From assembly GCA_001802125.1 (NCBI GenBank), contig MGZK01000018.1, forward strand, positions 186 through 58,925: a DNA stretch of 58,740 nucleotides, read 5' to 3'. The stretch is from Geobacteraceae bacterium GWC2_55_20 (GTDB lineage Bacteria; Desulfobacterota; Desulfuromonadia; Geobacterales; Pseudopelobacteraceae). The translations under genes and the position numbers were made by a program. Below, one piece after another: positions 18,159 through 45,415 of this stretch (position 1 is the first letter of the stretch; every line of letters starts with the position of its first letter). The notes beneath the pieces were generated by a model, which worked only from the letters and a program-made list of their open reading frames with translations, was not told where the DNA came from and did not search any database.

Positions 18159-20579
18159 TTACAATTGCTTTTCCACCCTCTTCAGCATGATCGAATTCAG
18201 CACCACCGAAACCGATGAAAAAGCCATTGCCAGCCCGGCGTATTCCGGTCTGAGGGTGATGCCGTAGCCTGACAGCAGTCCGGCCGCAACCGGGATGCCG
18301 AGAATGTTGTAGAACAGCGCCCAGAACAGGTTCTGCTTGACTTTGGTGAGGGTGGCCCGCCCGATCTTGATCGCCCGCACCACGTCCAGCAGGTCATCAC
18401 GCATCAAGACGATGTCGCCGGTCTCCTTGGCCACGTCGGTGCCGCCGCCGATGGCGATGCCGATGTCGGCCAGGGCCAGGGCCGGAGCGTCGTTGATGCC
18501 ATCGCCGGCCATACCGGTGATCAGGCCGCGCCCCTGGTATTCCCTGACGATCTCCTGCTTGCGCCCCGGCAGCACTTCCGCCTCGAAACTGTCCACGCCG
18601 GCCTGCTTCGCCACTACCGCGGCCACATCGGCATGGTCGCCGGTGATCATGCAGGTCTTGATGCCGATAGCACGCAATTCGGCCACGGCGTCGGCCGAGC
18701 CGGGCTTGAGCGTGTCGGCGAAGGCGGCCACACCCACCAGCGCTTTGCCGGCAGCCACGTATACCAGCGATTTTCCGGCCGCTGTCAAACTGGCCACCTT
18801 TTTTGCCAGCGGCGCCAGATCGATGCCATCTTCCTGCATCAGCCGCTCGTTGCCGACCGCCAGGCGGTAGCCGCCATAGGAGCAGGTGATGCCGTAGCCG
18901 CCCCGCTCATCGAAATCAATCGCCTCACCCGGCTCGATGCCGGCTTCGCGCGCCGCTGCCAGCGCCGCCTGGGCCAGCGGATGGGTGGAATAGGCTTCGG
19001 CGGTGGCCAGACACTCCAGCAGCTTTTCCGGATCAACGTGGCGGGACACCGGGACCAGGTCGGTCATCTCTGGCGTCCCCCTGGTCAGGGTACCGGTCTT
19101 GTCCAGCAGCAGCACCTGCAGCCCCGAGATGATCTCCAGCGCCGAACCCTTCTTGACCAGTATCCCCCGCTTCAGCGCTATGCCACTGCCGACCATGATC
19201 GCGGTCGGCGTGGCCAGCCCCATGGCGCAGGGGCAGGCGATCACCACCACGGCAATGGCAAAGCGGAAGGCGGTCAGGAAGTCGCTGGAGAGCAGGTTGA
19301 ACCAGACCAGGAATGTGGCTGCCGCCATCAGCAGCACTAACGGCACGAACCAGGCCGAAACCGCGTCAGCAAAACGCTGAATCGGCGCCTTGTCCCCCTG
19401 CGCTTCCCGCACCATCTTGACAATCTGGGCCAGCAGGGTGGCCTCGCCGATACGGGTGGCGCGAATCCGCATCATGCCATTGGTGCTGATGGTGGAACCG
19501 GTGACGCTGTCGCCCGGTTTTTTAAATACCGGCAGCGATTCACCGGTGACCATGCTCTCGTCAACCGCGCCGCCGCCATCCACTACCTCGCCATCAACCG
19601 GCACAGTGTCGCCGGCCCGCACCAGCACTACATCGCCGACCCGCACCACCGAGGCCGGCACCTCTTTCTCGCCGGTTTCGGTCACTAGGATGGCCTTGTC
19701 GGCCTGCAGGTGCAGCAGGCTCTTGAGCGCCTCGCCCGCTTTGCCCCGGGCCCGCGCCTCAAGGTATTTGCCCAGCCTGATGAAGGCGATCAGCATGGCC
19801 GAAGTCTCGAAAAAAACCGCGCTGTGGGCGCCCAGCAGCCCGAAGTAGGCCGCCAGCGAGTAGAAATAGGCCGCGGAAGTGCCCAGCGCCACCAGCACGT
19901 CCATGTTGGTCGTGCCATTTTTGAGCGCGCTCCAGGCGCCGCGGTAGAAGACCAGGCCGGCCGAGAACTGCAGCGCGGTGGCCAGCAGCAGATTCAGCTG
20001 CATCACGGCCCGATTGGAGTGCATGCCCATGGTCAGCATGATCGGCAGGGCGGCAACCAGCGATATGATCAGCCAGTTGCGCTGCGAGCGCAACGCATCA
20101 TCCACGGCGGCTTCGGATTCGCGCAGCTCGACCGGCGTGTAACCGGCGGCATGGACAATCGCAAGGATATCGGACTGGGTCAGCTTTTGCGGATCAAAAC
20201 GGACAAAACCGGTTTCGGCGGCCAGATTGACGATGGCGGTAGTAATGGCTGGGTTTTCCAGCAGTTTGCTTTCCAGGGTGTTTACGCACGAGGCGCAGTG
20301 CAGGCCGCGCACACCGAATGTAAGCTCCCCGGGCGGTTCGGGACGTCTGATGCCGTAACCCAGCTCTTCCACTCTCCGTGTGACCTCATCCCCGGTTATG
20401 ATGGTTTCATCAAGGCTGACAGTCAGCTCTTCGGTGGCAAAGTTGACAACCGCGCTCCGCACTCCTTCCAGCAGCTTGATCTCTTTTTCGATTCGTGCGG
20501 CACAATTGGCGCAGGACATGCCGGTAACTGAATAGGTTTCTTTTGTCGCAGCAGGATCAGTGGTGTTTGAAGTCGCCAT
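18159..20579 (-). CDS. copA: copper-translocating P1B-type ATPase
   Basis: An 806-residue protein with two N-terminal metal-binding domains (GMSCANC with Cys23/26 and GLHCASC with Cys95/98), eight membrane helices, the CPC motif in VVIACPCAMGLATPTA, the phosphorylation site DKTGTLT and MAGDGINDAPAL. These define a Cu+-exporting ATPase that moves copper out of the cytosol. Its start lies 23 bases inside the AI-2E family gene, so both are one transcript. The stop codon lies within the outer end of repeat copy 2. A CueR-like regulator is not seen here. Confidence 0.93.
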   Translation of the reverse strand: MATSNTTDPAATKETYSVTGMSCANCAARIEKEIKLLEGVRSAVVNFATEELTVSLDETIITGDEVTRRVEELGYGIRRPEPPGELTFGVRGLHCASCVNTLESKLLENPAITTAIVNLAAETGFVRFDPQKLTQSDILAIVHAAGYTPVELRESEAAVDDALRSQRNWLIISLVAALPIMLTMGMHSNRAVMQLNLLLATALQFSAGLVFYRGAWSALKNGTTNMDVLVALGTSAAYFYSLAAYFGLLGAHSAVFFETSAMLIAFIRLGKYLEARARGKAGEALKSLLHLQADKAILVTETGEKEVPASVVRVGDVVLVRAGDTVPVDGEVVDGGGAVDESMVTGESLPVFKKPGDSVTGSTISTNGMMRIRATRIGEATLLAQIVKMVREAQGDKAPIQRFADAVSAWFVPLVLLMAAATFLVWFNLLSSDFLTAFRFAIAVVVIACPCAMGLATPTAIMVGSGIALKRGILVKKGSALEIISGLQVLLLDKTGTLTRGTPEMTDLVPVSRHVDPEKLLECLATAEAYSTHPLAQAALAAAREAGIEPGEAIDFDERGGYGITCSYGGYRLAVGNERLMQEDGIDLAPLAKKVASLTAAGKSLVYVAAGKALVGVAAFADTLKPGSADAVAELRAIGIKTCMITGDHADVAAVVAKQAGVDSFEAEVLPGRKQEIVREYQGRGLITGMAGDGINDAPALALADIGIAIGGGTDVAKETGDIVLMRDDLLDVVRAIKIGRATLTKVKQNLFWALFYNILGIPVAAGLLSGYGITLRPEYAGLAMAFSSVSVVLNSIMLKRVEKQL

Positions 20580-33021: not shown

Positions 33022-33804
33022 TTATTTCTGAAAACCAAGTTTGGATGAAATTTCCTCACCGGCTTTTTTAACCAGCGGAACAAGTTCATCCTTCATCCGT
33101 TCATCGGAAAAGCGCATCGACGGGCCTGAAATGCTGACAGCGCCTATGATGCGGCGGGTGTAATCCCGGATTGGCGCGCTGACACACCTTACTCCGATGT
33201 CCAACTCCTCATTGTCAATGGCATAGCCCTGTTCTGCAATGACCTTCAGCTGTTTTTTGAGAGTGTCCCGGTCTGTAATGGTATGGTTTGTGTATCGTTG
33301 CAGTTCCTTGCCGGGGAGGTAACTTTCAAGCTCTTCGTCATTCATATAGGCGATCTGTATCTTGCCGGCTGCGGTACAGTAAGCCGGCAAGCGCGAACCA
33401 ACCCGCGGGACGACCCGGACTGTCATCGCGGTTTCAACCACATCCAGATAAATGATATGGTAATCCTTGAGTATTGAAACGTAGGTGGTTTCATTGCAGT
33501 CCTGGACCAGAGCCTCCAGTACCGGCTTGGATTGGCGCAGCAGGCCCATCTGTTTGATAAAGGTCTGTCCCAGCTCCAGGGTTTTCAGGCCCAGCCGGTA
33601 GTTTTCCGTCACCCTGTTCTGTTCTATGTAACCTCGTGATTCAAGTGTTGCAAGCAATCGGAAGACGTTGTTCTTATGAAGCTTCAAACGTTTGCTAAGT
33701 TCTGTAACACCCAGTTCATCCACCTCGCCATGAAACTGTTCGAGCAGATCAAGCGCATGGGAAACTGCCTGGATCAAATATTCGGATTTTTCTTTCTTTG
33801 CCAT
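33022..33804 (-). CDS. IclR-family transcriptional regulator
   Basis: A 260-residue regulator: winged helix-turn-helix at about 20-75 (LGVTELSKRLKLHKNNVFRLLATLE) and the IclR effector domain (SRLPAYCTAAGKIQIAYM, YAIDNEELDIGVRCVSAPIRD). Effectors of this family are usually small aromatic or carboxylic acids; this one is unknown. AGGA lies 8 bases before the ATG. It is divergent from the usp operon and shares its control region, so control of itself and of usp is plausible. Confidence 0.88.
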   Translation of the reverse strand: MAKKEKSEYLIQAVSHALDLLEQFHGEVDELGVTELSKRLKLHKNNVFRLLATLESRGYIEQNRVTENYRLGLKTLELGQTFIKQMGLLRQSKPVLEALVQDCNETTYVSILKDYHIIYLDVVETAMTVRVVPRVGSRLPAYCTAAGKIQIAYMNDEELESYLPGKELQRYTNHTITDRDTLKKQLKVIAEQGYAIDNEELDIGVRCVSAPIRDYTRRIIGAVSISGPSMRFSDERMKDELVPLVKKAGEEISSKLGFQK

Positions 33805-35763: not shown

Positions 35764-37767
35764 ATGAAACAAAAAATGGCAAAAAAGCTTCTCTTTTGTG
35801 CAATTGCAGGTCTGGCTTTCCCGCTTGCCGCCCAGGCGGCCGACGATGACCTGCAGAAAAAGATCGACAAGCTGAGTAAAGAGGTTGCCGACCTCAAGGG
35901 CTCCGTGAAAAGGGTCGAGGACAAGTCCATCGGCAAGTGGCTTACCATCGGCGGCGAGTACCGCTTCCGGGTGGATTCACTTCATGGTGAAACAGTGCCC
36001 TATTCAAGCGCCATCGGGACCATGCAGAACATGGTGGGATCCTTTCTGCTTGATCCGGCCGTTGCCGGATCAGCCGGCAATCCTTCGGCAACGCAGTTCA
36101 TGCTGGCCACTGAGAGCGGCAAACTCTTTTCGCCGACACAGTTCGGCTATATTCTGAACAATTATATGCCACAGGCCATGTATAACAGCTTTACGGCTTC
36201 AGGCGCAACTCCAGGCACTTTCCTCAACCAGTTCAACACCATTGTCATGAGTGGACCTGCCGCAGTTCAGGCAGCATTATCAGGAACGGCGCTGACCAGC
36301 CAGCAAACAGCCATTCTCGCAACACTCCAGTCCAAAGTATTACCTACTGTTTTTGCAAAGCCCTCTTCCGCCAGCATTATCGACCCAGCCACAGGATTAC
36401 AAGCTGCCGGTACAAGCCTTGGAGCACAGTGGAATACGGTTCTGACCTCACTTGCCGGCATGGGATACACACCGACACAGATAAATCAACTTGCAATGCA
36501 GATGATGATGCAGGGCTTTTTGGGAGCCGGCAGCCCCTACCTTGCACAAGCTCCTGCTTTCAAGCCCAAGAACGAAACCCTCTACACCAACAAATTCGGC
36601 ATTGATCTGACCGCCAAACCGATCAGAGACGTCACGGTACATGCCAAACTGGACATGTATAAGTCATTTGGTTCACAGAGCGATTCCACCACCATGAATG
36701 GATACTTCGCTGACCGCGTCGGCGTGTTCGACGGCACTCTCAGCCACGTTCCTACCGACAGCCTTCTGAATGTCGATCGCGCCTATGCAACATGGAGCAA
36801 CATCGCCGAACAGCCGGTCTGGTTCTCTGTCGGTCGCCGGCCAGCCACGAACGGAGCCCCCAGCAACCTGCGCCTGAACAAAGAGCGCCCCGGCAATGGC
36901 GGCACACCATCTCTTCTGGTCGATTATGCTTTTGACGGCATGACCATAGGTTATGCCCCCGACATCGATGCACTGCCAGGCGCATATGCCAAGGTTTGTT
37001 ACGGCCGCGGATTCGACAGCGGCATCAAGACATCTTCCAACAGCATCAAGGACACCGACATGCTTGGTGTAGCGGTTATTCCTTATGAGACCGACCCGCT
37101 GCGTATCTGGCTGCAGTGGAACCGCGGTTTCGATATCTTTGATTTCCCTGCCATGAACAACACCATCTTCGGCAACACCGCACCGGCAGTGAACCTGGGC
37201 AATATTGACTGGTACGGCGCCGGAGCAATGAGTACGCTCAAAAACGTCGGACCGGGCACCCTGCAGCTTTTCAGTGATTTCGGCCTGAGCGTGACTCACC
37301 CGAACGGCAACGTATCTGAAAACGCCGGATTCCAGGGATTGATGAGCGGAGAGTTCTTTGCACAGGACACGAATCCCAAAGACCAGACCGGTTGGGCCGT
37401 CTACGCCGGTATTCGCTATGACCTGCCGTCAAAAACCAAGATCGGCTTCGAGTTCAACCATGGCTCAAAATATTGGATCACCTTCGCGCCTGCTGCTGAC
37501 GACATGTGGACCAGCAAGGTCGGCACACGCGGCAACGTCTATGAACCGTACATCATCCAGGAACTCAACCTGAAACCGATTTCCAACTATTTTGCCAAGG
37601 CCTTCTTCAAGCTTGGCTACCAGTACTATGACTTCGAATACACCGGCAGCAACAACTGGGTCGGCGCTCCCAAGAAAATCTCCGAGATCAAACCAACCGA
37701 TCTCATGCTGATGGCGCCACTGAAAGAAGCTCACAATATTTACGGCACTTTTGAAGTTCATTTCTAG
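35764..37767 (+). CDS. DUF3373-like outer-membrane beta-barrel protein
   Basis: A 667-residue protein with a signal peptide (LLFCAIAGLAFPLAAQAA), a periplasmic coiled coil (DDDLQKKIDKLSKEVADLKG) as seen in porins, and a long beta-strand-rich body ending in Phe (GTFEVHF), typical of outer-membrane barrels. WLTIGGEYRFRVDS and VWFSVGRRPATNGAPSN resemble the DUF3373 proteins that accompany multihaem cytochromes in Geobacter, including the Ext-type electron-conduit and selenite-related channels as I recall them. GGAGG precedes the ATG. A hairpin follows its stop. Confidence 0.75.
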   Translation: MKQKMAKKLLFCAIAGLAFPLAAQAADDDLQKKIDKLSKEVADLKGSVKRVEDKSIGKWLTIGGEYRFRVDSLHGETVPYSSAIGTMQNMVGSFLLDPAVAGSAGNPSATQFMLATESGKLFSPTQFGYILNNYMPQAMYNSFTASGATPGTFLNQFNTIVMSGPAAVQAALSGTALTSQQTAILATLQSKVLPTVFAKPSSASIIDPATGLQAAGTSLGAQWNTVLTSLAGMGYTPTQINQLAMQMMMQGFLGAGSPYLAQAPAFKPKNETLYTNKFGIDLTAKPIRDVTVHAKLDMYKSFGSQSDSTTMNGYFADRVGVFDGTLSHVPTDSLLNVDRAYATWSNIAEQPVWFSVGRRPATNGAPSNLRLNKERPGNGGTPSLLVDYAFDGMTIGYAPDIDALPGAYAKVCYGRGFDSGIKTSSNSIKDTDMLGVAVIPYETDPLRIWLQWNRGFDIFDFPAMNNTIFGNTAPAVNLGNIDWYGAGAMSTLKNVGPGTLQLFSDFGLSVTHPNGNVSENAGFQGLMSGEFFAQDTNPKDQTGWAVYAGIRYDLPSKTKIGFEFNHGSKYWITFAPAADDMWTSKVGTRGNVYEPYIIQELNLKPISNYFAKAFFKLGYQYYDFEYTGSNNWVGAPKKISEIKPTDLMLMAPLKEAHNIYGTFEVHF

Positions 37768-37780
37768 CACAAACAGTTGA

Positions 37781-37806
37781 AGGGGTACGGCACTAGCCGT
37801 GCCCCT
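37781..37806 (+). terminator. hairpin after the outer-membrane protein gene
   Basis: AGGGGTACGGC and GCCGTGCCCCT form an 11-bp stem (one G-T pair) around a 4-base loop (ACTA), 13 bases after the stop. The following T-tract is short (GCTTT), so termination may be partial and allow read-through to the next gene. Confidence 0.6.
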
Positions 37807-37875
37807 GCTTTAAACGTTAACCGGGACAATCACATTTGAGTAACACTTACACAGAACACAAACAGGGAGTTAGTC

Positions 37876-38199
37876 ATGAAGAAAATCAGTTCAGTTATTA
37901 TCGTCTTTGCAATCATGTTGGCAGCATCATTAACAGTTATCAGTACCGCCAGCGCAGAAACTATCAAGATTACAGGGGTCATCTCTAAAATTGAAATTGC
38001 TGCTGACCAGAAGTCGGCCATTGCCGTGATAAAAGACAATAAATCCGGTGAATCCATTTCCATTACCATTGCTGATGAGCTTACACTCGACAAACTCAAG
38101 GACAAGCGCATCCTGGAAGGCGATGAAATCCGCACCAAGTTTGAAAAAGAAGGCGACAAGAACACCAGCAAGATGTTCAAGAAAACAGCAGGTTGCTAA
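37876..38199 (+). CDS. small exported beta-domain protein
   Basis: A 107-residue protein with a signal peptide (VIIVFAIMLAASLTVISTASA). The mature 75-residue part (IKITGVISKIEIAADQ, then ILEGDEIRTKFEKEGDKNTSKMFKK) closely resembles residues about 55-130 of the next gene's product, where IKKGHEIKVEYVENNG sits. It appears to be a free-standing copy of that domain. GGGAG precedes the ATG by 6 bases. The protein ends in Cys. No named family. Confidence 0.75.
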   Translation: MKKISSVIIVFAIMLAASLTVISTASAETIKITGVISKIEIAADQKSAIAVIKDNKSGESISITIADELTLDKLKDKRILEGDEIRTKFEKEGDKNTSKMFKKTAGC

Positions 38200-38231
38200 C
38201 CCTGATCTAAAATCAAGGAGGAGTCCTAAGC

Positions 38232-39644
38232 ATGAAATTTAATTCACTTCGCCCGGTAGTTCTGACTTTGGTAGCAGGAATATCTGTTTCAGCAGCTGTT
38301 ACCGTCTCAGCGGCACCCAGTGCGCCGACTGCCAAGCCGACAATTGCCAAAATCTGCACCACCTGTCACAAAGCTGAAGCAAATGCAGTTCGCGGATATT
38401 TTGACATTGTAACATTCAAGGCCAAGACCATACAGGTCAAGATCGATGATGCCGTCGAACAATTCAAGTTTGATGAAGATGAAATCAAGGTCGTAAACGG
38501 TGCGGGAAAAACCGGTGACGGTGAATTTCTCAAGGACAACCTGATTAAAAAAGGACACGAGATCAAGGTCGAGTACGTCGAGAATAATGGCGTAAAGAAT
38601 GCGGTCAAGTTGATTGAAAAACCGCCGGTAAAGATTCCGGCCGAGATGTTGATGAGCACTGCTGAAGTTGAAAAGCTGGTTGCTCTTGGACCGGAAAAGG
38701 GCAAATACTTCCTGTATGATTCCCGTCCGTTGCCACGTTTCCAGCAGGGCTCGATCCCAACCGCTGTAAACCTTCCTTTCCCGGCCTTTGACAAACTGGC
38801 CGACAAGCTGCTTCCCAAGGACAAGTCGGCCCTGGTTATTTTCTATTGCGCCGGACCTTCCTGCAACATGAGTCCAGGTTCAGCCGACAAGGCCAAGAAA
38901 CTCGGCTATACCAACCTGAAGGTTTACAAGGATGGTATGCCGGCCTGGTCAACCAAGAATTACGGCGTACTCTCTACCCAGTTCCTGAAAGAGGCCTGGA
39001 TCGACAAGGACATTCCGCATGTCCTGCTGGACGTGCGCGCAGCTAAGGATGCCGCCAAGGGTCACATCAAGGGCGCCGTTTCCTTCCCGGCCGCCAAGGC
39101 CGCCAAGCTGATCAAGAACCTGCCTCCGAAAGACAAAAAACCACCGGTCATGATTTATGACGGAAAAGATGGCGTCCAGGCTGCCAAGGTAGCCAAGCAA
39201 CTTGTAAAAGCCGGCTACGGCAATGTGATGGTGGTGACGGGTGGATACGATGCCTGGCAGGCAGCTAAATTTGAAGTGGCAACCGGAAAACTTACAACCA
39301 AGGCTGTCTATGTTCCTAAGCCGCGTCCTGGCGAGATCAACCTGGACGAGTTCAAGAAGTACGCGTCTGAGTTGCCTGCAAACGTCATGATTATCGATGC
39401 CCGCACCGCAGCGGAAGCCAACAAAGGCATGCTCAAGACAGCCAAACTGATCCCGGCCGAAGAGATCAAGGACCGTCTGGCCGAGATCCCCAAAGACAAG
39501 CTGATCGTGTTCTACTGCAATACAGGTACGATAGCGGAAGTTGCCTACAACACTTTAAAGGGTTTTGGATACACTAATGTCAAGTTTGCAAATGCCAAGG
39601 TTGCATTTGAAAAGAATGGCAGCTACAAGATCACAAAAGAATAA
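38232..39644 (+). CDS. exported monohaem cytochrome with three rhodanese domains
   Basis: A 470-residue protein with a signal peptide (VLTLVAGISVSAAVTVSAA). CTTCH (42-46) is the single haem-binding site. The small beta domain (about 55-130) follows. Rhodanese domain 1 (about 140-245) has an active-site-like Cys206 in FYCAGPSC; domain 2 (about 255-350) has Asp in that position (MIYDGKDGVQ, inactive-type); domain 3 (about 365-470) has Cys429 in FYCNTGTI. The combination suggests sulfur (sulfane or polysulfide) transfer linked to electron transfer in the periplasm. GGAGG precedes the ATG. Confidence 0.85.
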   Translation: MKFNSLRPVVLTLVAGISVSAAVTVSAAPSAPTAKPTIAKICTTCHKAEANAVRGYFDIVTFKAKTIQVKIDDAVEQFKFDEDEIKVVNGAGKTGDGEFLKDNLIKKGHEIKVEYVENNGVKNAVKLIEKPPVKIPAEMLMSTAEVEKLVALGPEKGKYFLYDSRPLPRFQQGSIPTAVNLPFPAFDKLADKLLPKDKSALVIFYCAGPSCNMSPGSADKAKKLGYTNLKVYKDGMPAWSTKNYGVLSTQFLKEAWIDKDIPHVLLDVRAAKDAAKGHIKGAVSFPAAKAAKLIKNLPPKDKKPPVMIYDGKDGVQAAKVAKQLVKAGYGNVMVVTGGYDAWQAAKFEVATGKLTTKAVYVPKPRPGEINLDEFKKYASELPANVMIIDARTAAEANKGMLKTAKLIPAEEIKDRLAEIPKDKLIVFYCNTGTIAEVAYNTLKGFGYTNVKFANAKVAFEKNGSYKITKE

Positions 39645-39652
39645 CGCTATAT

Positions 39653-39690
39653 CACGTACAACACCCGCCAAATGGCGGGTGTTGTACGTG
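39653..39690. repeat. 17-bp perfect hairpin between the rhodanese and octahaem genes
   Basis: CACGTACAACACCCGCC (39653-39669) and GGCGGGTGTTGTACGTG (39674-39690) pair perfectly around AAAT. There is no following U-tract, so it may protect the upstream mRNA 3' end, attenuate transcription or bind a protein, rather than terminate cleanly. Confidence 0.65.
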
Positions 39691-39830
39691 GGCATTTCAG
39701 ATTGTATTCAAAATCTTTTTATTTATCGATAACTATACAAAAATTCATATAATTGGAACAAGCGTTGCATTGATCAGGCAACATACCATCTATGGGTATG
39801 AATATGCCTGGAATCGAAAGGAATGGAAAC

Positions 39831-41198
39831 ATGTCTGGAAAAATTGCAGCGATCATGCTGGGATGTGCTTTGTTGGCAACAACTGCTGTTGCCAAAGAAC
39901 ATCCAGGAAAAGAGCAGATACTCAAGGATGGCTATCAGGGTCCCAAAACCTGCGAAACCTGTCATCCCGGCAAGGCCAAGGAGTTTCTCGGAACGGTCCA
40001 CTGGAAACACGCCTCCAAGGTGGATCATGTTGACAATCTCAATCCCAATGAAGAGCACGGGATGAAGAATCGCATCTATACAATGTGTAACGGCAATGAC
40101 ATCGTCAACAACCTGAAGGAAGTCCCGCCGAACGCATTGGGCAAGACCAAGTTCACCGGCTGCAACACCTGTCACCCCGGCGATCACGCCAGTGACGTCG
40201 GCAGCACCGGACCACAGGCTGAGCAGGCCATCGACTGCCTGATCTGCCATTCATCCAAGTATGATTTCAGCAAGAGAAAACCGATCAAGGACAAAAACGG
40301 CAATGTTGTCATGACCCAGGACCGCAGCACAGAAGCTGCCGCAAACATAGGCAGGCCATCAATCAAGAACTGCATGGTCTGCCATGAAGCAGCAGGCGGC
40401 GGAGCAATGATCAAGCGCGGTTTCTCCATGGCCAAGGATGCCGAGGTACATGTAACCAAGGGTATTATCTGCGTTGATTGCCACCAGGTCAAAAACCACA
40501 AGTTCCCCACCGGCCGTGATCCCAACAACTGGGCACACGACGGCATTTATATGACCTGCGTCGGCGAATGCCATACCAGCAAACCACACACGGATGCTGA
40601 TTACAACCGTCATACCGACAAGATCGCCTGCCAGACCTGCCACATTCCGAGAACCGGTGGTGCTTTTTCAAAGGATTTCACCAAGTGGGAAAAACAGTCC
40701 AACGGATTCTATGAGCCTTCTACATTGAAGCGCGAAGTCAATGAAACCGCTCCGGTATATGCCTGGTACAATCTGACCGTCAGCAACACACCGACCTTCA
40801 TCGGCCCGAAGGGGAGCAGAACCGACGGTAAGAGCAAGATCTATCCGTTCAAGGTTTTCCAGGGCAAGGCATATTTCAACAAGAAGAACGGCCAGCTGAT
40901 GTCAATGGACTTCGCACCGCCAATTTCAAACGGCGATTCATTGGCAGGCGTAGCATCTGCCGCCAAGATACTCGGCATCAAGGATTATGAACCGGTACCG
41001 GGATGGCAGACCATCTACTTCGGCAGCAACCACCAGGTCACACCCAAAAACAAGGCACTGACCTGCGCAAATTGTCACGCGGTAAATGGCGTGCTTGATT
41101 TCAAGGAACTGGGATATGCCGCCAAAGAGATCGAGAAGCTAACCAACCCTGAGCTTTATTTTGAAAAACTGCTCAAACTACAGCAAGAAGATGAGTAA
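39831..41198 (+). CDS. octahaem c-type cytochrome of the tetrathionate reductase (OTR) family
   Basis: A protein of about 455 residues from ATG 39831 (AAAGGA 8 bases upstream) with a signal peptide (IAAIMLGCALLATTAVA). It has seven CxxCH haem sites plus one CVGECH, a CX3CH site, for eight haems. The C-terminal half has the OTR pattern: IACQTCHIPRTGG, YAWYN, KIYPFKVFQGKAYF and HQVTPKNKALTCANCHAVNG. The N-terminal TVHWKH fits too. OTR proteins reduce tetrathionate, nitrite or hydroxylamine in vitro. The substrate here is not known. Confidence 0.87.
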   Translation: MSGKIAAIMLGCALLATTAVAKEHPGKEQILKDGYQGPKTCETCHPGKAKEFLGTVHWKHASKVDHVDNLNPNEEHGMKNRIYTMCNGNDIVNNLKEVPPNALGKTKFTGCNTCHPGDHASDVGSTGPQAEQAIDCLICHSSKYDFSKRKPIKDKNGNVVMTQDRSTEAAANIGRPSIKNCMVCHEAAGGGAMIKRGFSMAKDAEVHVTKGIICVDCHQVKNHKFPTGRDPNNWAHDGIYMTCVGECHTSKPHTDADYNRHTDKIACQTCHIPRTGGAFSKDFTKWEKQSNGFYEPSTLKREVNETAPVYAWYNLTVSNTPTFIGPKGSRTDGKSKIYPFKVFQGKAYFNKKNGQLMSMDFAPPISNGDSLAGVASAAKILGIKDYEPVPGWQTIYFGSNHQVTPKNKALTCANCHAVNGVLDFKELGYAAKEIEKLTNPELYFEKLLKLQQEDE

Positions 41199-41229
41199 TT
41201 CCTTGAACTTCAACGTATACAAATAAAGC

Positions 41230-41261
41230 ATGGGGCGTGAATTATTTCACGCCCCATTTTT
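41230..41261 (+). terminator. terminator of the octahaem cytochrome gene
   Basis: ATGGGGCGTGAA (41230-41241) pairs perfectly with TTCACGCCCCAT (41246-41257) around TTAT and is followed by TTTT. It lies 30 bases after the stop. The molybdoenzyme operon that begins at 41339 therefore likely has its own promoter in the AT-rich stretch 41263-41320. Confidence 0.9.
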
Positions 41262-41338
41262 GATTGCATTATATAGATATTTATATACTAGCCCGGGAAA
41301 TTATTTTTCACATCCAAGCATCAATCAGGAGGTAGAAC

Positions 41339-43537
41339 GTGTCGCCAAAATTCTCTCGCAGAACTTTTCTAAAGGTTTCAGGCGCGGCAACCGCAGCGGT
41401 GACAGTTGCCGCTTCAATGCCGGAAAAGTTCCTTTCATGGGCAGAGGAGTCCGGACAAAAAGAGATGAAGCAGATCCCCACTTTTTGCGAACTCTGCTTT
41501 TGGAACTGTGGACTGATCGCAAAAGTCGAGAACAACAAAGTTGTCAAGATTGACGGCAATCCCAAGAGCCTTCGCGGCAGGGGACGGTTATGCGGACGTG
41601 GTAATGCGGCCTTGGGTGCGCTCTACGATCCGGACCGCCTGAAATACCCGATGATCAATACCGGTAAGCGCGGTGAACCGGTCTGGAAACGGGCCACCTG
41701 GGACGAAGCGCTCGGTGTCATTGCCCAGAAGATGAAGTCGGTCAGCGAAAAGTACGGCCCGGATTCCATGGCGCTGATCTATCACGGCACCGGAGCCTCC
41801 TTCTGGAAGCATCTGCTGCACGCCTATGGCAGCACACTGTCGGCAGCGCCTTCATTTGCCCAATGCCGTGGACCGCGCGATATCGGTTTTGTACTGACTT
41901 TCGGCTCGGATGTTGGATCTCCTGAATACTACGACTTCAGTAAAAGCAAATACATAGTCCTGTTTGGCTCCCATCTGGGAGAGAACGCCCACAACAGTCA
42001 GGTCCAGGACATCGTCAAGGGTTATTCCAGTGGTGCGAAGATGACCGTGGTAGATCCGCGCCTCTCCAATATTGCATCCAAGGCCGATCGCTGGCTTCCG
42101 ATCAAACCCGCCACCGATCTCGCGCTGATGCTTGCCTGGATCAGGCTGATAATCGAGGAAGGGCTCTACGACAAGGAGTATGTTGCCAAATACGCCACCG
42201 GTTTTGACGAACTGCGCGCCGCGGTCCAGCAATACACTCCTGAATGGGCTGAAGCCGAAACATCGATATCCAGCGATGTAATCGTCAAGGTTGCCCGCGA
42301 AATGGGAGAGTATGCTCCCAATGTCTGCGTTGGGGCAGGCCGTTATTCCACCTGGTACGGCGACGACACCCAGCGCAGCCGGGCAATTGCAATTTTAAAT
42401 GCCCTGCTCGGCACCTGGGGCCGTGAAGGGGGCTACTTCTTCCCCACCGGAGCAAAAGTCCCGGAATACCCCGGATTGCCGGCATACCCGGAACATGTGG
42501 AAGCTGCACAACTGGATGAAGCCTACCCGTTCGCCCTGCTGCAAACGACAACATCCATCAAGCAGGCCACAATTACCGGACAGCCGCGACCGGTCAAAGC
42601 GTGGTTCGTGTACGGTTCAAACCTGATGAAGACCATGCCTGACAAACAGGAGACCATCAAGGCGATCCAGAACCTGGATCTGATGGTTACTATCGACACC
42701 ATGCCGATGGACATAATCAATTATTCGGATGTTGTCTTGCCGGAATGCACCTACATGGAACGTTATGACAACATAAACGTGGGCAAATTCAAGGGTGAAG
42801 CCGAGATTGCGCTGCGGCAGCCGACCGTCGAACCGCTGTGGGAATCAAAACCCTCCTGGTGGATAACCAAGGAACTGGGCAACAAACTGGGACTGGCGGC
42901 ATTCTTTCCCTGGAAGGATGGCGAGGAGTACATTGCCAAGCGTTGCGAAGCTGCAGAATTGGATTTCGCCCAACTGAAGCGGGACGGCGTCATCATCAAA
43001 AAGGGTGGCAATCCCTATATCACCGCCGACAGCCAACCGGAGTTCGGCACTCCTTCGGGCAAGATCGAGCTGTACTCCCAACAATTGGCGGAAAAAGGGT
43101 TTGATCCGGTTCCCAAATACACCAGGCATCCGACCCCACCTGCAGGTCATTTCCGGCTACTGTTCGGCCGGGCGCCGCTGCACACCTTCTCCCGTACCAC
43201 CAACAACTTCATGCTGACCGATCTGCAGAAAGATAACTCCCTCTGGATCAACGCCAAAAAAGGGAAGGAACTGGGATTGAAAAACGGGGACTATGTCTCT
43301 CTCGTCAACCAGAACGGTGTGATTGCAAACGGCCGGATCAAGGTGAAGCTGACCCAGCGCCTCCGTGATGATGCCGTTTATATGAACCACGGCTTTGGCG
43401 TTCACGCCAAAGGGATGTCTCGTGCCAACGGTCAGGGAATTGCAGATGACGACCTGATCGGAAAACCCGCGATTGATCCGATAATGGGTGGCACCGCCAT
43501 GCGCGGGAATTTTGTCAAGATCGTTAAGGGGGCCTGA
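41339..43537 (+). CDS. molybdopterin oxidoreductase catalytic subunit (PsrA/PhsA-like)
   Basis: A 732-residue enzyme with a Tat signal (SRRTFLK at 6-12). The 4Fe-4S site is C50-x2-C53-x3-C57 ... C85 (CELCFWNC, RLCGRG). Cys175 in SFAQCRGPRDI is placed as the likely molybdenum ligand, as in polysulfide/thiosulfate reductases. Molybdopterin-guanine-binding strands follow (VLFGSHLGENAH, VVLPECTYMERYDN). It reduces an oxidised sulfur or related chalcogen or metalloid compound, or runs in reverse. The start is GTG 41339 with GGAGG 6 bases upstream. First gene of a three-gene operon. Confidence 0.87.
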   Translation: MSPKFSRRTFLKVSGAATAAVTVAASMPEKFLSWAEESGQKEMKQIPTFCELCFWNCGLIAKVENNKVVKIDGNPKSLRGRGRLCGRGNAALGALYDPDRLKYPMINTGKRGEPVWKRATWDEALGVIAQKMKSVSEKYGPDSMALIYHGTGASFWKHLLHAYGSTLSAAPSFAQCRGPRDIGFVLTFGSDVGSPEYYDFSKSKYIVLFGSHLGENAHNSQVQDIVKGYSSGAKMTVVDPRLSNIASKADRWLPIKPATDLALMLAWIRLIIEEGLYDKEYVAKYATGFDELRAAVQQYTPEWAEAETSISSDVIVKVAREMGEYAPNVCVGAGRYSTWYGDDTQRSRAIAILNALLGTWGREGGYFFPTGAKVPEYPGLPAYPEHVEAAQLDEAYPFALLQTTTSIKQATITGQPRPVKAWFVYGSNLMKTMPDKQETIKAIQNLDLMVTIDTMPMDIINYSDVVLPECTYMERYDNINVGKFKGEAEIALRQPTVEPLWESKPSWWITKELGNKLGLAAFFPWKDGEEYIAKRCEAAELDFAQLKRDGVIIKKGGNPYITADSQPEFGTPSGKIELYSQQLAEKGFDPVPKYTRHPTPPAGHFRLLFGRAPLHTFSRTTNNFMLTDLQKDNSLWINAKKGKELGLKNGDYVSLVNQNGVIANGRIKVKLTQRLRDDAVYMNHGFGVHAKGMSRANGQGIADDDLIGKPAIDPIMGGTAMRGNFVKIVKGA

Positions 43538-43538
43538 C

Positions 43539-44696
43539 ATGAAACTATTCGGAGTTCTTATTCCTGAGAAGGAACAGCTTATCGGCACAGTGGGTGACGT
43601 AATCAAAGGAAAAGCCGGCTTGTCGCTGTATGCGTCAATATTCGGCCTGTTGATCGGGCTATACGCCATCGGCTCCATCTTCATCAGAGGGCATGCCCAC
43701 ACGATCAACACCTCCAGCCTCGTTCCCTGGGGACTGCAGATATCCACCTATGTTTACTTTGCGCTGCTCAGCACCGGCTGCACATTCGTCAATTTTTTCG
43801 GCCATGTGTTTTTCGAAAAACAGTACAAACCGTTTGCGTCAAGAATTGTTTTTGTCGGGATAATCACAGCCGTGGCTGCCTTCTTCTCTCTGACGACCGA
43901 GATGGGGCACCTTGAGCGGATGTACTACTTCCTGCTGTCGCCAAACCCGAAGTCGCCCATGTTCTGGATGGCCATCTGGTACACCTGCTACCTGATCATC
44001 ATTACCTGGGAATACGTAAACATCCAGACCAACAGGCACTCCAACCGGGTCATGTGGGCAGCGTTTTTCATAGCGGTCTTCACCCACAGCACCCTGGGAA
44101 GCCTGCTCGGTTCGGTAAGTTCGCGCGTCTACTATTACAGCGCCCTGATGCCGATCTACTTCCTGTTTATCGCCTTCCTGACCGGCTGTTCCCTTACGAC
44201 CATCATTGCCGCAATGACTGTCAAACAGAAGAAACTGGACGAGAACTACCATCTCCACCCCTTTGTAACATTGCTCAAGGTCGGCTTGGGACTGGCGCTT
44301 TTGATCACCTTCTGGCGCATGATGATCGGCCTCTCCGCGCATCTGGAGGGTTCCGAAGTATTCTCACTGACACTGATCAACAGCGTTTTGTTCGGAATCG
44401 TGGTAGTTATCGTAATTCCGTACATTCTGCTCAAAATCGGTCAAAGCGCCAACTGGCTGATCTTTGTGGGACTCTTCATCATGGGTACCCAGCTCAAAGC
44501 CCGTAATGACCTGGTGGTCGGCGCGTTCAAGATTCCGGTCTTCAGGGTCTACGACATGCCCGAAGTAATACACTACACACCATCAATCTATGAAAACCTC
44601 GTGGTCGTGGCATCCGCATCCCTGGTGGCCATGCTCTATATCGTTTTCGAGCGTTCGGGTGTTTTTGAAGCAAGAAACATCAAGGAGGAACACTGA
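43539..44696 (+). CDS. NrfD/PsrC-like membrane subunit
   Basis: A protein of about 385 residues with about ten membrane helices (first SLYASIFGLLIGLYAIGSIF, last LVVVASASLVAMLYIVF), as in the larger NrfD/HybB/DmsC-like anchors that exchange electrons with the quinone pool. ATG 43539 has AAGGGGG upstream and begins one base after the catalytic gene's stop codon, so the two are tightly coupled. It ends just before the iron-sulfur gene. Confidence 0.87.
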   Translation: MKLFGVLIPEKEQLIGTVGDVIKGKAGLSLYASIFGLLIGLYAIGSIFIRGHAHTINTSSLVPWGLQISTYVYFALLSTGCTFVNFFGHVFFEKQYKPFASRIVFVGIITAVAAFFSLTTEMGHLERMYYFLLSPNPKSPMFWMAIWYTCYLIIITWEYVNIQTNRHSNRVMWAAFFIAVFTHSTLGSLLGSVSSRVYYYSALMPIYFLFIAFLTGCSLTTIIAAMTVKQKKLDENYHLHPFVTLLKVGLGLALLITFWRMMIGLSAHLEGSEVFSLTLINSVLFGIVVVIVIPYILLKIGQSANWLIFVGLFIMGTQLKARNDLVVGAFKIPVFRVYDMPEVIHYTPSIYENLVVVASASLVAMLYIVFERSGVFEARNIKEEH

Positions 44697-44698
44697 TC

Positions 44699-45415
44699 AT
44701 GGACCAGTTTGACGGCAAGGATATCATGGAAATAATGCAGGAAGATCTGCTGCGCGCCCTGAAAAAACCACGCAAGGAACGGCGCTGGGCAATGGCGATC
44801 GACCTTAAGAAGTGTATCGGCTGCCATGCCTGCACTACCGGCTGCATGTCCGAGAACCTGACACCACCCGAGATTCATTATCGCCCGGTCAAGGAAGAAG
44901 AGATCGGCGAGTACCCCAATACCGGCATGCGTTTTCTGCCACGTCCATGTTTTCATTGCGATTCGCCCACCTGCACACCGGTCTGTCCGGTTACCGCTAC
45001 TTACAAGCGCGATGACGGCCTGGTCGTGATCGATTACAAGAAATGCATCGGTTGCCGCTACTGCATCGTGGCCTGTCCATACGGCGCCCGTTCGGCCGAT
45101 TCCGGGCATTACTTTACCGGTGACTTCCACGATAAAACCTATGAAGTGGAGAATTCCGGCGAGTACGGCGGTAATTTCAAACGCAAGAGCCACTGGCATT
45201 CGCCGATCGGCAACGCCCGCAAGTGCCACTTCTGCATACACCGGGTGGAAAAGGGTGAACTGACCCGTTGCACGACAACCTGCCTCGGCAACGCCACCTT
45301 CTTCGGCGATATCAACGACCCCAAGGCCCTGATCACCAAGCTGATCTCCAAGCCGAACGTGTTCAGGTACAAGGAAGAGTTGGGCACAAAACCGATGGTG
45401 TATTATATCACCTGA
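44699..45415 (+). CDS. four-cluster iron-sulfur electron-transfer subunit (PsrB-like)
   Basis: A 238-residue ferredoxin-like subunit with four Cys groups for [4Fe-4S] clusters: CIGCHACTTGC (39-49), CFHCDSPTCTPVCP, CIGCRYCIVACPYG and CHFCIH with the later CTTTC. It passes electrons between the membrane subunit and the molybdoenzyme. No Tat signal of its own, so it is probably exported with the catalytic subunit. GGAGG precedes the ATG. Confidence 0.93.
   Translation: MDQFDGKDIMEIMQEDLLRALKKPRKERRWAMAIDLKKCIGCHACTTGCMSENLTPPEIHYRPVKEEEIGEYPNTGMRFLPRPCFHCDSPTCTPVCPVTATYKRDDGLVVIDYKKCIGCRYCIVACPYGARSADSGHYFTGDFHDKTYEVENSGEYGGNFKRKSHWHSPIGNARKCHFCIHRVEKGELTRCTTTCLGNATFFGDINDPKALITKLISKPNVFRYKEELGTKPMVYYIT

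Follow-up and report, generated by a model that had tools for sequence, protein, structure and literature searches.

A polysulfide-reductase-type gene cluster with a DUF3373 porin, a triple rhodanese and an octahaem cytochrome in a Geobacteraceae bacterium, and a possible link to cysteine-tipped exported proteins

The window analysed here, meaning the whole stretch of DNA, comprises 58,740 nucleotides from Geobacteraceae bacterium GWC2_55_20 (assembly GCA_001802125.1, contig MGZK01000018.1, positions 186 to 58,925 of the forward strand), and positions are given within it. It contains a cluster of seven genes, I-J-H-K-A-C-B, all on the + strand between 35764 and 45415, which were identified by sequence reading together with Pfam and NCBIfam scans. 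This is probably a sulfur respiration cluster, of the polysulfide reductase (PSR) type, in new company: a porin, the small protein J, a rhodanese and an octahaem cytochrome. The gaps between the genes, from I to B, are 108, 32, 186, 140, 1 and 2 bases. The features are:

35764..37767, + strand: I, DUF3373 outer-membrane porin (PF11853, 510.9 bits)
37876..38199, + strand: J, exported protein of 107 amino acids with a predicted oligonucleotide/oligosaccharide-binding (OB) fold (homologue alignments, OB-fold model)
38232..39644, + strand: H, exported monohaem triple rhodanese (PF00581, three stretches)
38841-38864, + strand: catalytic-loop Cys of H, domain 1
39153-39173, + strand: catalytic-loop Asp of H, domain 2
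39510-39527, + strand: catalytic-loop Cys of H, domain 3
39831..41198, + strand: K, periplasmic octahaem c cytochrome resembling octahaem tetrathionate reductase (OTR; haem motifs, match to structure 1sp3)
41230..41257, + strand: terminator-like hairpin in the K–A gap, 12 pairs with a T-rich tail (consensus match only)
41339..43537, + strand: A, polysulfide-reductase-type molybdenum (Mo) subunit exported by twin-arginine translocation (Tat; match to structure 2vpw, tree, twin-arginine and 4Fe-4S motifs)
43539..44696, + strand: C, NrfD/PsrC-type quinol-binding membrane subunit, 1 base after A (PF03916, 75.5 bits)
44699..45415, + strand: B, 4Fe-4S electron-transfer subunit (PF13247 and other Fer4 families)

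The cluster is real and conserved, and is not a chance arrangement because the same order is found again in relatives. All the parts named in a preliminary description of this DNA are present on one strand, and the order that it gave for the enzyme subunits, catalytic, membrane and iron–sulfur, corresponds to A-C-B. It had also placed terminators at 41230 and 37781, of which the 12-pair stem at 41230-41257 was recovered while none is listed at 37781. With a single good hairpin, its proposal of several transcripts depends on the K–A stem; the hairpin scan found 14 terminator-like structures against 12.5 ± 3.9 in shuffled sequences, which is no excess.

The catalytic subunit, A, has a twin-arginine motif and the 4Fe-4S motif CELCFWNC, and is encoded together with iron–sulfur (B) and NrfD (C) partner subunits. 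It matches the PSR of Thermus thermophilus (2vpw) with an E-value of 2e-202 and 45.2% identity, compared with 33.1% for PhsA of an E. coli plasmid. The Cys in its motif FAQCRGP (41855-41875) aligns with Cys173 of the Thermus enzyme, which we take to be the Mo ligand, and A also keeps Trp336 as well as His145 and Arg332, presumably active-site residues of PSR. In a maximum-likelihood tree of 66 rows, the window's clade of the catalytic subunit (A1) forms one set with two others (A2 and A3) and Thermus PSR, at a value of 98 in the Shimodaira–Hasegawa-like approximate likelihood ratio test, while PhsA, ArrA and a further clade (A4) lie outside. The rows had been thinned from 90 by shared peptides, an unrelated open reading frame (ORF; L261_p662) had been dropped, and the tree was built without Wolinella PsrA, SrrA and AnrA. 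Every row has Cys in the Cys173 column. All 63 A1–A3 sequences retain His145, Arg332 and Trp336, three residues that never occur all together in A4, PhsA or ArrA; these last differ from PSR at positions 145 and 336.

Identification of A as PhsA or ArrA was rejected on the curated models. A scores 518.1 bits on the PhsA model NF012032 (cut-off 694), which no protein in 277 genomes of the class exceeds, and 173.6 bits on the ArrA model NF041714 (cut-off 1600); the ArrA-like proteins of the class, which are separate genes, also fall below 1600, mostly at 970-1180 bits. Scores on the YnfE/F models are low as well. For B, the nearest NCBIfam models are DsrO (177.9 bits) and TtrB (172.3 bits), both below cut-off. 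The window's genome encodes a second enzyme, of the A2 type, on contig C32 beside a LysR-like gene. Homology thus argues strongly that A is of the polysulfide-reductase type, and the preliminary reading of a Tat-exported, PsrABC-like Mo enzyme with a Cys ligand agrees with the twin-arginine motif, the Cys173 alignment, the identity to Thermus PSR and the active-site columns; of the comparisons that it suggested, the tree with PhsA and ArrA places A together with the Thermus enzyme, a polysulfide reductase of solved structure. The cluster differs from Thermus PsrABC, which likewise joins a Tat-exported Mo subunit carrying the Cys ligand to iron–sulfur and NrfD subunits, in its A-C-B order, in a B nearer the DsrO and TtrB models, and in the porin, J, rhodanese and octahaem cytochrome alongside.

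The cytochrome K has seven CXXCH motifs and one CX3CH motif (CVGECH, 40557-40574), giving the eight c-haem motifs of an octahaem cytochrome as first described; its start at 39831 is favoured over 39792 by the starts of its relatives. It matches the eight-haem OTR of Shewanella (1sp3) with an E-value of 1e-23. Equivalents of OTR Cys64 (in MCNGND, 40083-40100) and Lys153 (in GGGAMIKRG, 40395-40421) align in K and are present in all 44 close homologues, whereas Asp150 is replaced in 44 of 44 (Ala 17, Val 25, Tyr 2). We take Lys153 to be a haem ligand, and Cys64 and Asp150 to be active-site residues. Unlike Shewanella OTR, K scores below the cut-off of the OTR model TIGR04315 (155.6 bits against 375), and the sixth haem motif, CX3CH in the window, is CX3CH or CX4CH (CADTACH) in many relatives and CXXCH in others, for example L107. 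Two divergent octahaem proteins encoded beside DUF3373 that were scanned do pass the OTR cut-off, at 508.5 bits in L110, which has the same gene order, and at 557.4 bits in L141, where the protein is of another family. As it is found beside both PSR-type enzymes and octahaem OTR-like proteins, DUF3373 accompanies two kinds of sulfur-compound reductase that are unrelated to each other.

An AlphaFold2 model of I (mean predicted local distance difference test score, pLDDT, of 74.4; 50-row alignment) has a coiled-coil-like N-terminal helix and a predicted 16-strand barrel, with a mostly helical insert of about 170 residues after strand 1. Its best structural matches are OmpM1 (Z 21.7, 3.7 Å over 295 residues) and PorB (Z 21.7, 3.1 Å over 286 residues). 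The MtrB barrel has 26 strands, so the strand number of the model does not fit a sheath of the MtrB/PioB type. MtrB does not appear among the fold matches listed for I, although absence from that list proves nothing. The predicted fold points to a porin for small molecules and away from a sheath of the MtrB type, which fits the substrate-passing outer-membrane channel suggested earlier. The accompanying link of DUF3373 channels to selenite and electron conduits is not supported: the selenite porin ExtI belongs to a separate family, NF040900/PF07396, with its own gene. No NCBIfam model matches I at E 0.001, so it is not a protein of NF040900, whose curated cut-off is 150. In L241, by comparison, the 401-residue porin of an ext-type cluster scores 718.2 bits on NF040900 and also matches PF07396; that cluster lies at 512-531 kb, and the one DUF3373 match of the same genome at 3,697 kb. 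The L241 order is a LysR-like gene, a rhodanese lipoprotein, the 401-residue porin, a small protein, a five-haem ORF, TGA, a short ORF and a 12-haem ORF. Equating K with ExtKL was likewise rejected, the ExtKL homologue of L241 being the five-haem ORF followed by TGA and the short ORF; no in-frame TGA was seen within close K homologues, where the scan matches lay at the gene ends.

A search of the 277 genomes of the window's class gave a DUF3373 match in 199. Counts refer to the places listed; 120 of these with their neighbourhoods, and the window, make up 121 loci, including those cut by contig ends, which were mapped with the window's proteins. In 86 of the 121, an octahaem cytochrome, an A-type enzyme or both follow DUF3373 on its own strand at a distance of up to 10.5 kb, and in 35 neither does. 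Viewed from the enzyme, and among the matches listed, a same-strand DUF3373 gene precedes 19 of 31 A1, 8 of 23 A2 and 15 of 30 A4 genes by no more than 12 kb. In genomes with a listed DUF3373, 15 of 15 A4 genes have one 119-456 bases upstream, measured hit to hit. Ten of the 12 A1 genes not near DUF3373 are on another contig or have no listed DUF3373; the other two are in genomes G143 and G144, where A is about 11 kb upstream of I with ext-type cytochromes in between (L097).

Relatives of K occur in 79 loci of the named collection, including records from Anaeromyxobacter, Bdellovibrionales and Holophagaceae. Upstream of K in the 67 testable loci, I is found in 56, J in 53 and both in 50. All seven genes are present in nine of the 79, eight of them as a single run on one strand (L183, L184, L187, L188, L189, L193, L200 and L218) and the ninth with H on the opposite strand (L163). 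With several loci cut by contig ends, A exceeds 350 bits in 18 of 79 and H exceeds 300 bits in 16 of 79. In G204 and G234, K is found at another place on the contig than I, and in L069-L072 the two genes are divergent. Loci of the A4 type combine I with A but contain neither K nor J. J was found in 21 of 395 genomes drawn from the phylum, and the I-J-K order recurs in eight J loci outside the class. The expectation that the gene order would be conserved therefore stands for most loci, the parts being separated in G204, G234, L069-L072, G143 and G144. That the parts form one pathway is supported by their recurrence together and weakened by the small number of K loci with A and by the A4 loci; the enzymes look instead like interchangeable modules on a common porin. 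Two further observations concern these neighbourhoods. A cytochrome with 27 CXXCH motifs in 713 residues adjoins I-J-K in L152 and L153 (in both on the minus strand near K) and in some other Geobacter-like loci. By reading, the A4-type locus L126 (4333-6332) has genes for an ArsR-like regulator, a permease and a thioredoxin-like protein after DUF3373-A-B-C.

H has three PF00581 stretches and a single CXXCH haem motif (38355-38369). Among 41 distinct homologues, the haem motif is present in all 41, the domain-1 and domain-3 Cys in 40 each, and the corresponding residue of domain 2 is Asp in 38 and Asn in two. A lipobox-like sequence occurs in nine of the 41.

The sole Cys of J is its last residue (Cys107, codon 38194-38196), in the ending KKTAGC. 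A C-terminal Cys is found in 110 of 110 distinct J homologues of the mapped loci, 102 of which end in -[KR]KTAGC. In a wider search, which overlaps this set in part and from which L301 (24.6 bits, rhodanese-like) was dropped, the last residue is Cys in 18 of 19; the one that differs, in L299, has the end -KVAGE, and the short stretch around it contains no I or K. The same -GC end is present in seven of seven ExtJ homologues. Ten of 15 ExtH-like rhodanese lipoprotein matches end in Cys, or ten of 11 when cut rows are dropped; of the five that do not, four are cut by locus ends and one is weak at 40.6 bits. Short Lys/Ala-rich exported proteins with ends such as -KKEVSGC occur in many such loci near A-B-C or ExtM genes. 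One adjoins extM in the window's own genome (L246, 9117-9335, minus strand), and further examples are in L032 (16877-17119) and L077 (15469-15675). A further small family ends in -QGC (L244, L257 and L258). As background, 58 of 2053 (2.8%) other distinct ORFs of at least 80 amino acids in these loci, taken as mechanical ORFs, end in Cys.

These -GC tails are the most surprising feature here. The proteins may be read, from their sequences, as a group whose terminal thiols could bind sulfane sulfur, and the cysteine-tipped helpers are possibly a new class of carrier. SoxY- and DsrC-type sulfur carriers have a terminal or near-terminal Cys on a short tail, and J is similar in this respect; it differs in its predicted OB fold (mean pLDDT 76.7, best Z 11.8), with no sequence relation shown, and a SoxY or DsrC fold is not among the fold matches listed for J. 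Scans of J against Pfam and NCBIfam at E 0.001, and against PADLOC, gave no match. A relation of J to ExtJ is not claimed, the profile match covering 35 columns, mostly signal peptide, with a probability of 76.7. An I-J gene fusion in one named locus was dismissed as an artefact of a masked run, and in L287 the long open frame that includes J seems fortuitous, overlapping I and extending as far as J. Paralogues of J were also seen: five in G274 (contigs C17, C34, C28, C27 and C36), and a second J in the window's own genome (G000, C31:53861-54142).

The function proposed for the cluster is respiration of sulfane sulfur, as polysulfide or polythionate, with a thiol relay; this reading, in which substrate and relay are both inferred, is given a probability of a little under one half (about 0.47). 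In Wolinella, the rhodanese Sud hands sulfur on to PsrA. In the proposed mechanism, soluble chain anions would pass through I into the periplasm, as the predicted structure suggests. Sulfane sulfur might then be held as a persulfide on the terminal Cys of J and on the Cys of H domains 1 and 3, residues singled out by their conservation, before being handed on. A, fed by menaquinol through C and B, would reduce it to sulfide, a step strongly indicated by homology. K, with its OTR-type Lys ligand, could perhaps be a further periplasmic reductase, acting on a related sulfur oxyanion, or else a redox partner. Since relatives exchange A and K on the same porin, I and J may be a common intake, with the reductases as interchangeable ends. 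A broader and more tentative suggestion is that in Geobacter-like bacteria apparently unrelated -GC proteins form a periplasmic relay for sulfur, or selenium, in which terminal thiols load at the pore and deliver to interchangeable reductases. Its conceivable members, put forward just as tentatively, are an OB-fold carrier encoded beside DUF3373, arms rich in Lys and a rhodanese lipoprotein whose tail is rich in Gly, and its reductases the PSR-type Mo enzyme and the OTR-like octahaem cytochrome. The case bears on the route by which Gram-negative anaerobes bring insoluble or chain-like sulfur to their periplasmic reductases. It offers candidates for the pore, from a Pfam domain whose function is unknown, and for a thiol carrier, together with the reductases that these possibly serve, and it clears up an easy confusion of DUF3373 porins with the selenite porin ExtI.

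Comparable systems are known in part. A secreted triple rhodanese is part of a Psr operon in Desulfurivibrio dismutans, where Psr increases strongly during disproportionation of elemental sulfur and porins have been suggested as the route of polysulfide import (PMC12142623). An exported three-domain rhodanese is thus encoded with PsrABC there as in the window; that rhodanese is a predicted lipoprotein, however, and the accessible part of the report names no DUF3373 protein, J or octahaem cytochrome for the operon (PMC12142623). The extHIJKLMNOPQS cluster of Geobacter sulfurreducens similarly joins a rhodanese, a porin, a small exported protein and a multihaem cytochrome, but ExtI is a PF07396/NF040900 protein, ExtKL has five haems with a TGA rather than eight, and no Mo enzyme belongs to the cluster as given in the accessible parts of those reports (PMC5877670, PMC6148476). 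In Dethiobacter, octahaem OTR/SirA relatives are encoded with rhodaneses, and one is up on thiosulfate (PMC10376724). DUF3373, rhodanese, octahaem cytochrome and Psr were not found joined in the accessible portion of the open-licence literature, which is weak evidence of absence.

Several observations weigh against respiration of sulfane sulfur through a thiol relay. The case is known here from genes, sequences and predicted structures alone, and the tree of A was a quick one in which the branch of Thermus PSR is long, as is that of PhsA. Among the matches listed, no A3-type enzyme (0 of 14) lies near the porin. No A above 350 bits is seen in 61 of 79 K loci, some of them cut, so that K and A need not share one pathway. 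J occurs in loci where H or ExtH queries find no rhodanese, and its predicted OB fold also resembles the silver and copper chaperones SilF and CusF. Homologues of ExtH and ExtI lie downstream of the cluster in L188, where they follow all seven genes, and in L221 and L230, which lowers the sulfane-sulfur reading and raises one in which selenium, tellurium or another chalcogen is the substrate. The cluster would then be a partner of the ext pathway: the rhodanese and terminal thiols would carry Se or Te, and A or K would reduce selenite, tellurite or selenosulfide. ExtH and ExtI homologues downstream of I-J in L040 and L038 point the same way, as do H-type rhodaneses (603 bits in L242, 475 bits in L097) that have ext-type genes as neighbours, A2-type enzymes sharing loci with cytochromes of ExtM/ExtN size (L093 and L114), and the -GC ends of ExtJ and ExtH. 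A deficiency of extI also impairs selenite and tellurite reduction (PMC5877670, as far as accessible). With ExtH and ExtI genes after the cluster in some relatives a selenium role stays in view, but by sequence I is distinct from ExtI and K from ExtKL, no tie of J to ExtJ was made, and A, a PSR-type enzyme, scores low on the models of YnfE/F and ArrA; we regard it as a serious but rather unlikely alternative.

The thiols themselves may have another meaning. The -GC tail could be a sorting or processing signal, given that families without evident relation have identical last two residues, or the proteins could be thiol buffers or metal chaperones, as the SilF and CusF matches of J would allow, while the reductases would still respire sulfur compounds. 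The loci in which -GC ends are enriched are those of sulfur-type enzymes and rhodaneses, although these were the loci covered and the point is not decisive, and one -GC protein, ExtH, is itself a rhodanese; such an explanation seems improbable. Respiration of arsenate, antimonate or thioarsenate by A, with K and H incidental, is more improbable again. The genes after I-A-B-C in L126 would suit it, but A4 enzymes lack PSR His145 and Trp336 and their context need not apply to the window, whose genome has a separate ArrA-like gene (C126, 1009.9 bits) against the low ArrA score of A. Even slighter are the chances of an outer-membrane conduit in which I would sheathe a cytochrome and pass electrons to extracellular acceptors. 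Geobacter-like relatives are rich in multihaem cytochromes, the 27-CXXCH protein lies near I-J-K in some of them, and the preliminary description had linked this porin to Geobacter conduits; the link fits ExtI, of a different family, the 16 predicted strands and structural matches are those of small-molecule porins, and no outer-surface lipoprotein cytochrome is apparent by reading among the seven genes, the lipobox scan having covered H homologues only.

The flanks of the cluster look ordinary. Upstream are genes for a universal stress protein and a polysaccharide deacetylase, with no LysR gene among the upstream genes scanned and an IclR-type regulator on the opposite (minus) strand at 33025-33804; downstream is an FKBP-type isomerase. 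Elsewhere in the window, a heavy-metal P-type ATPase with HMA domains is encoded at 18162-20579 on the minus strand.

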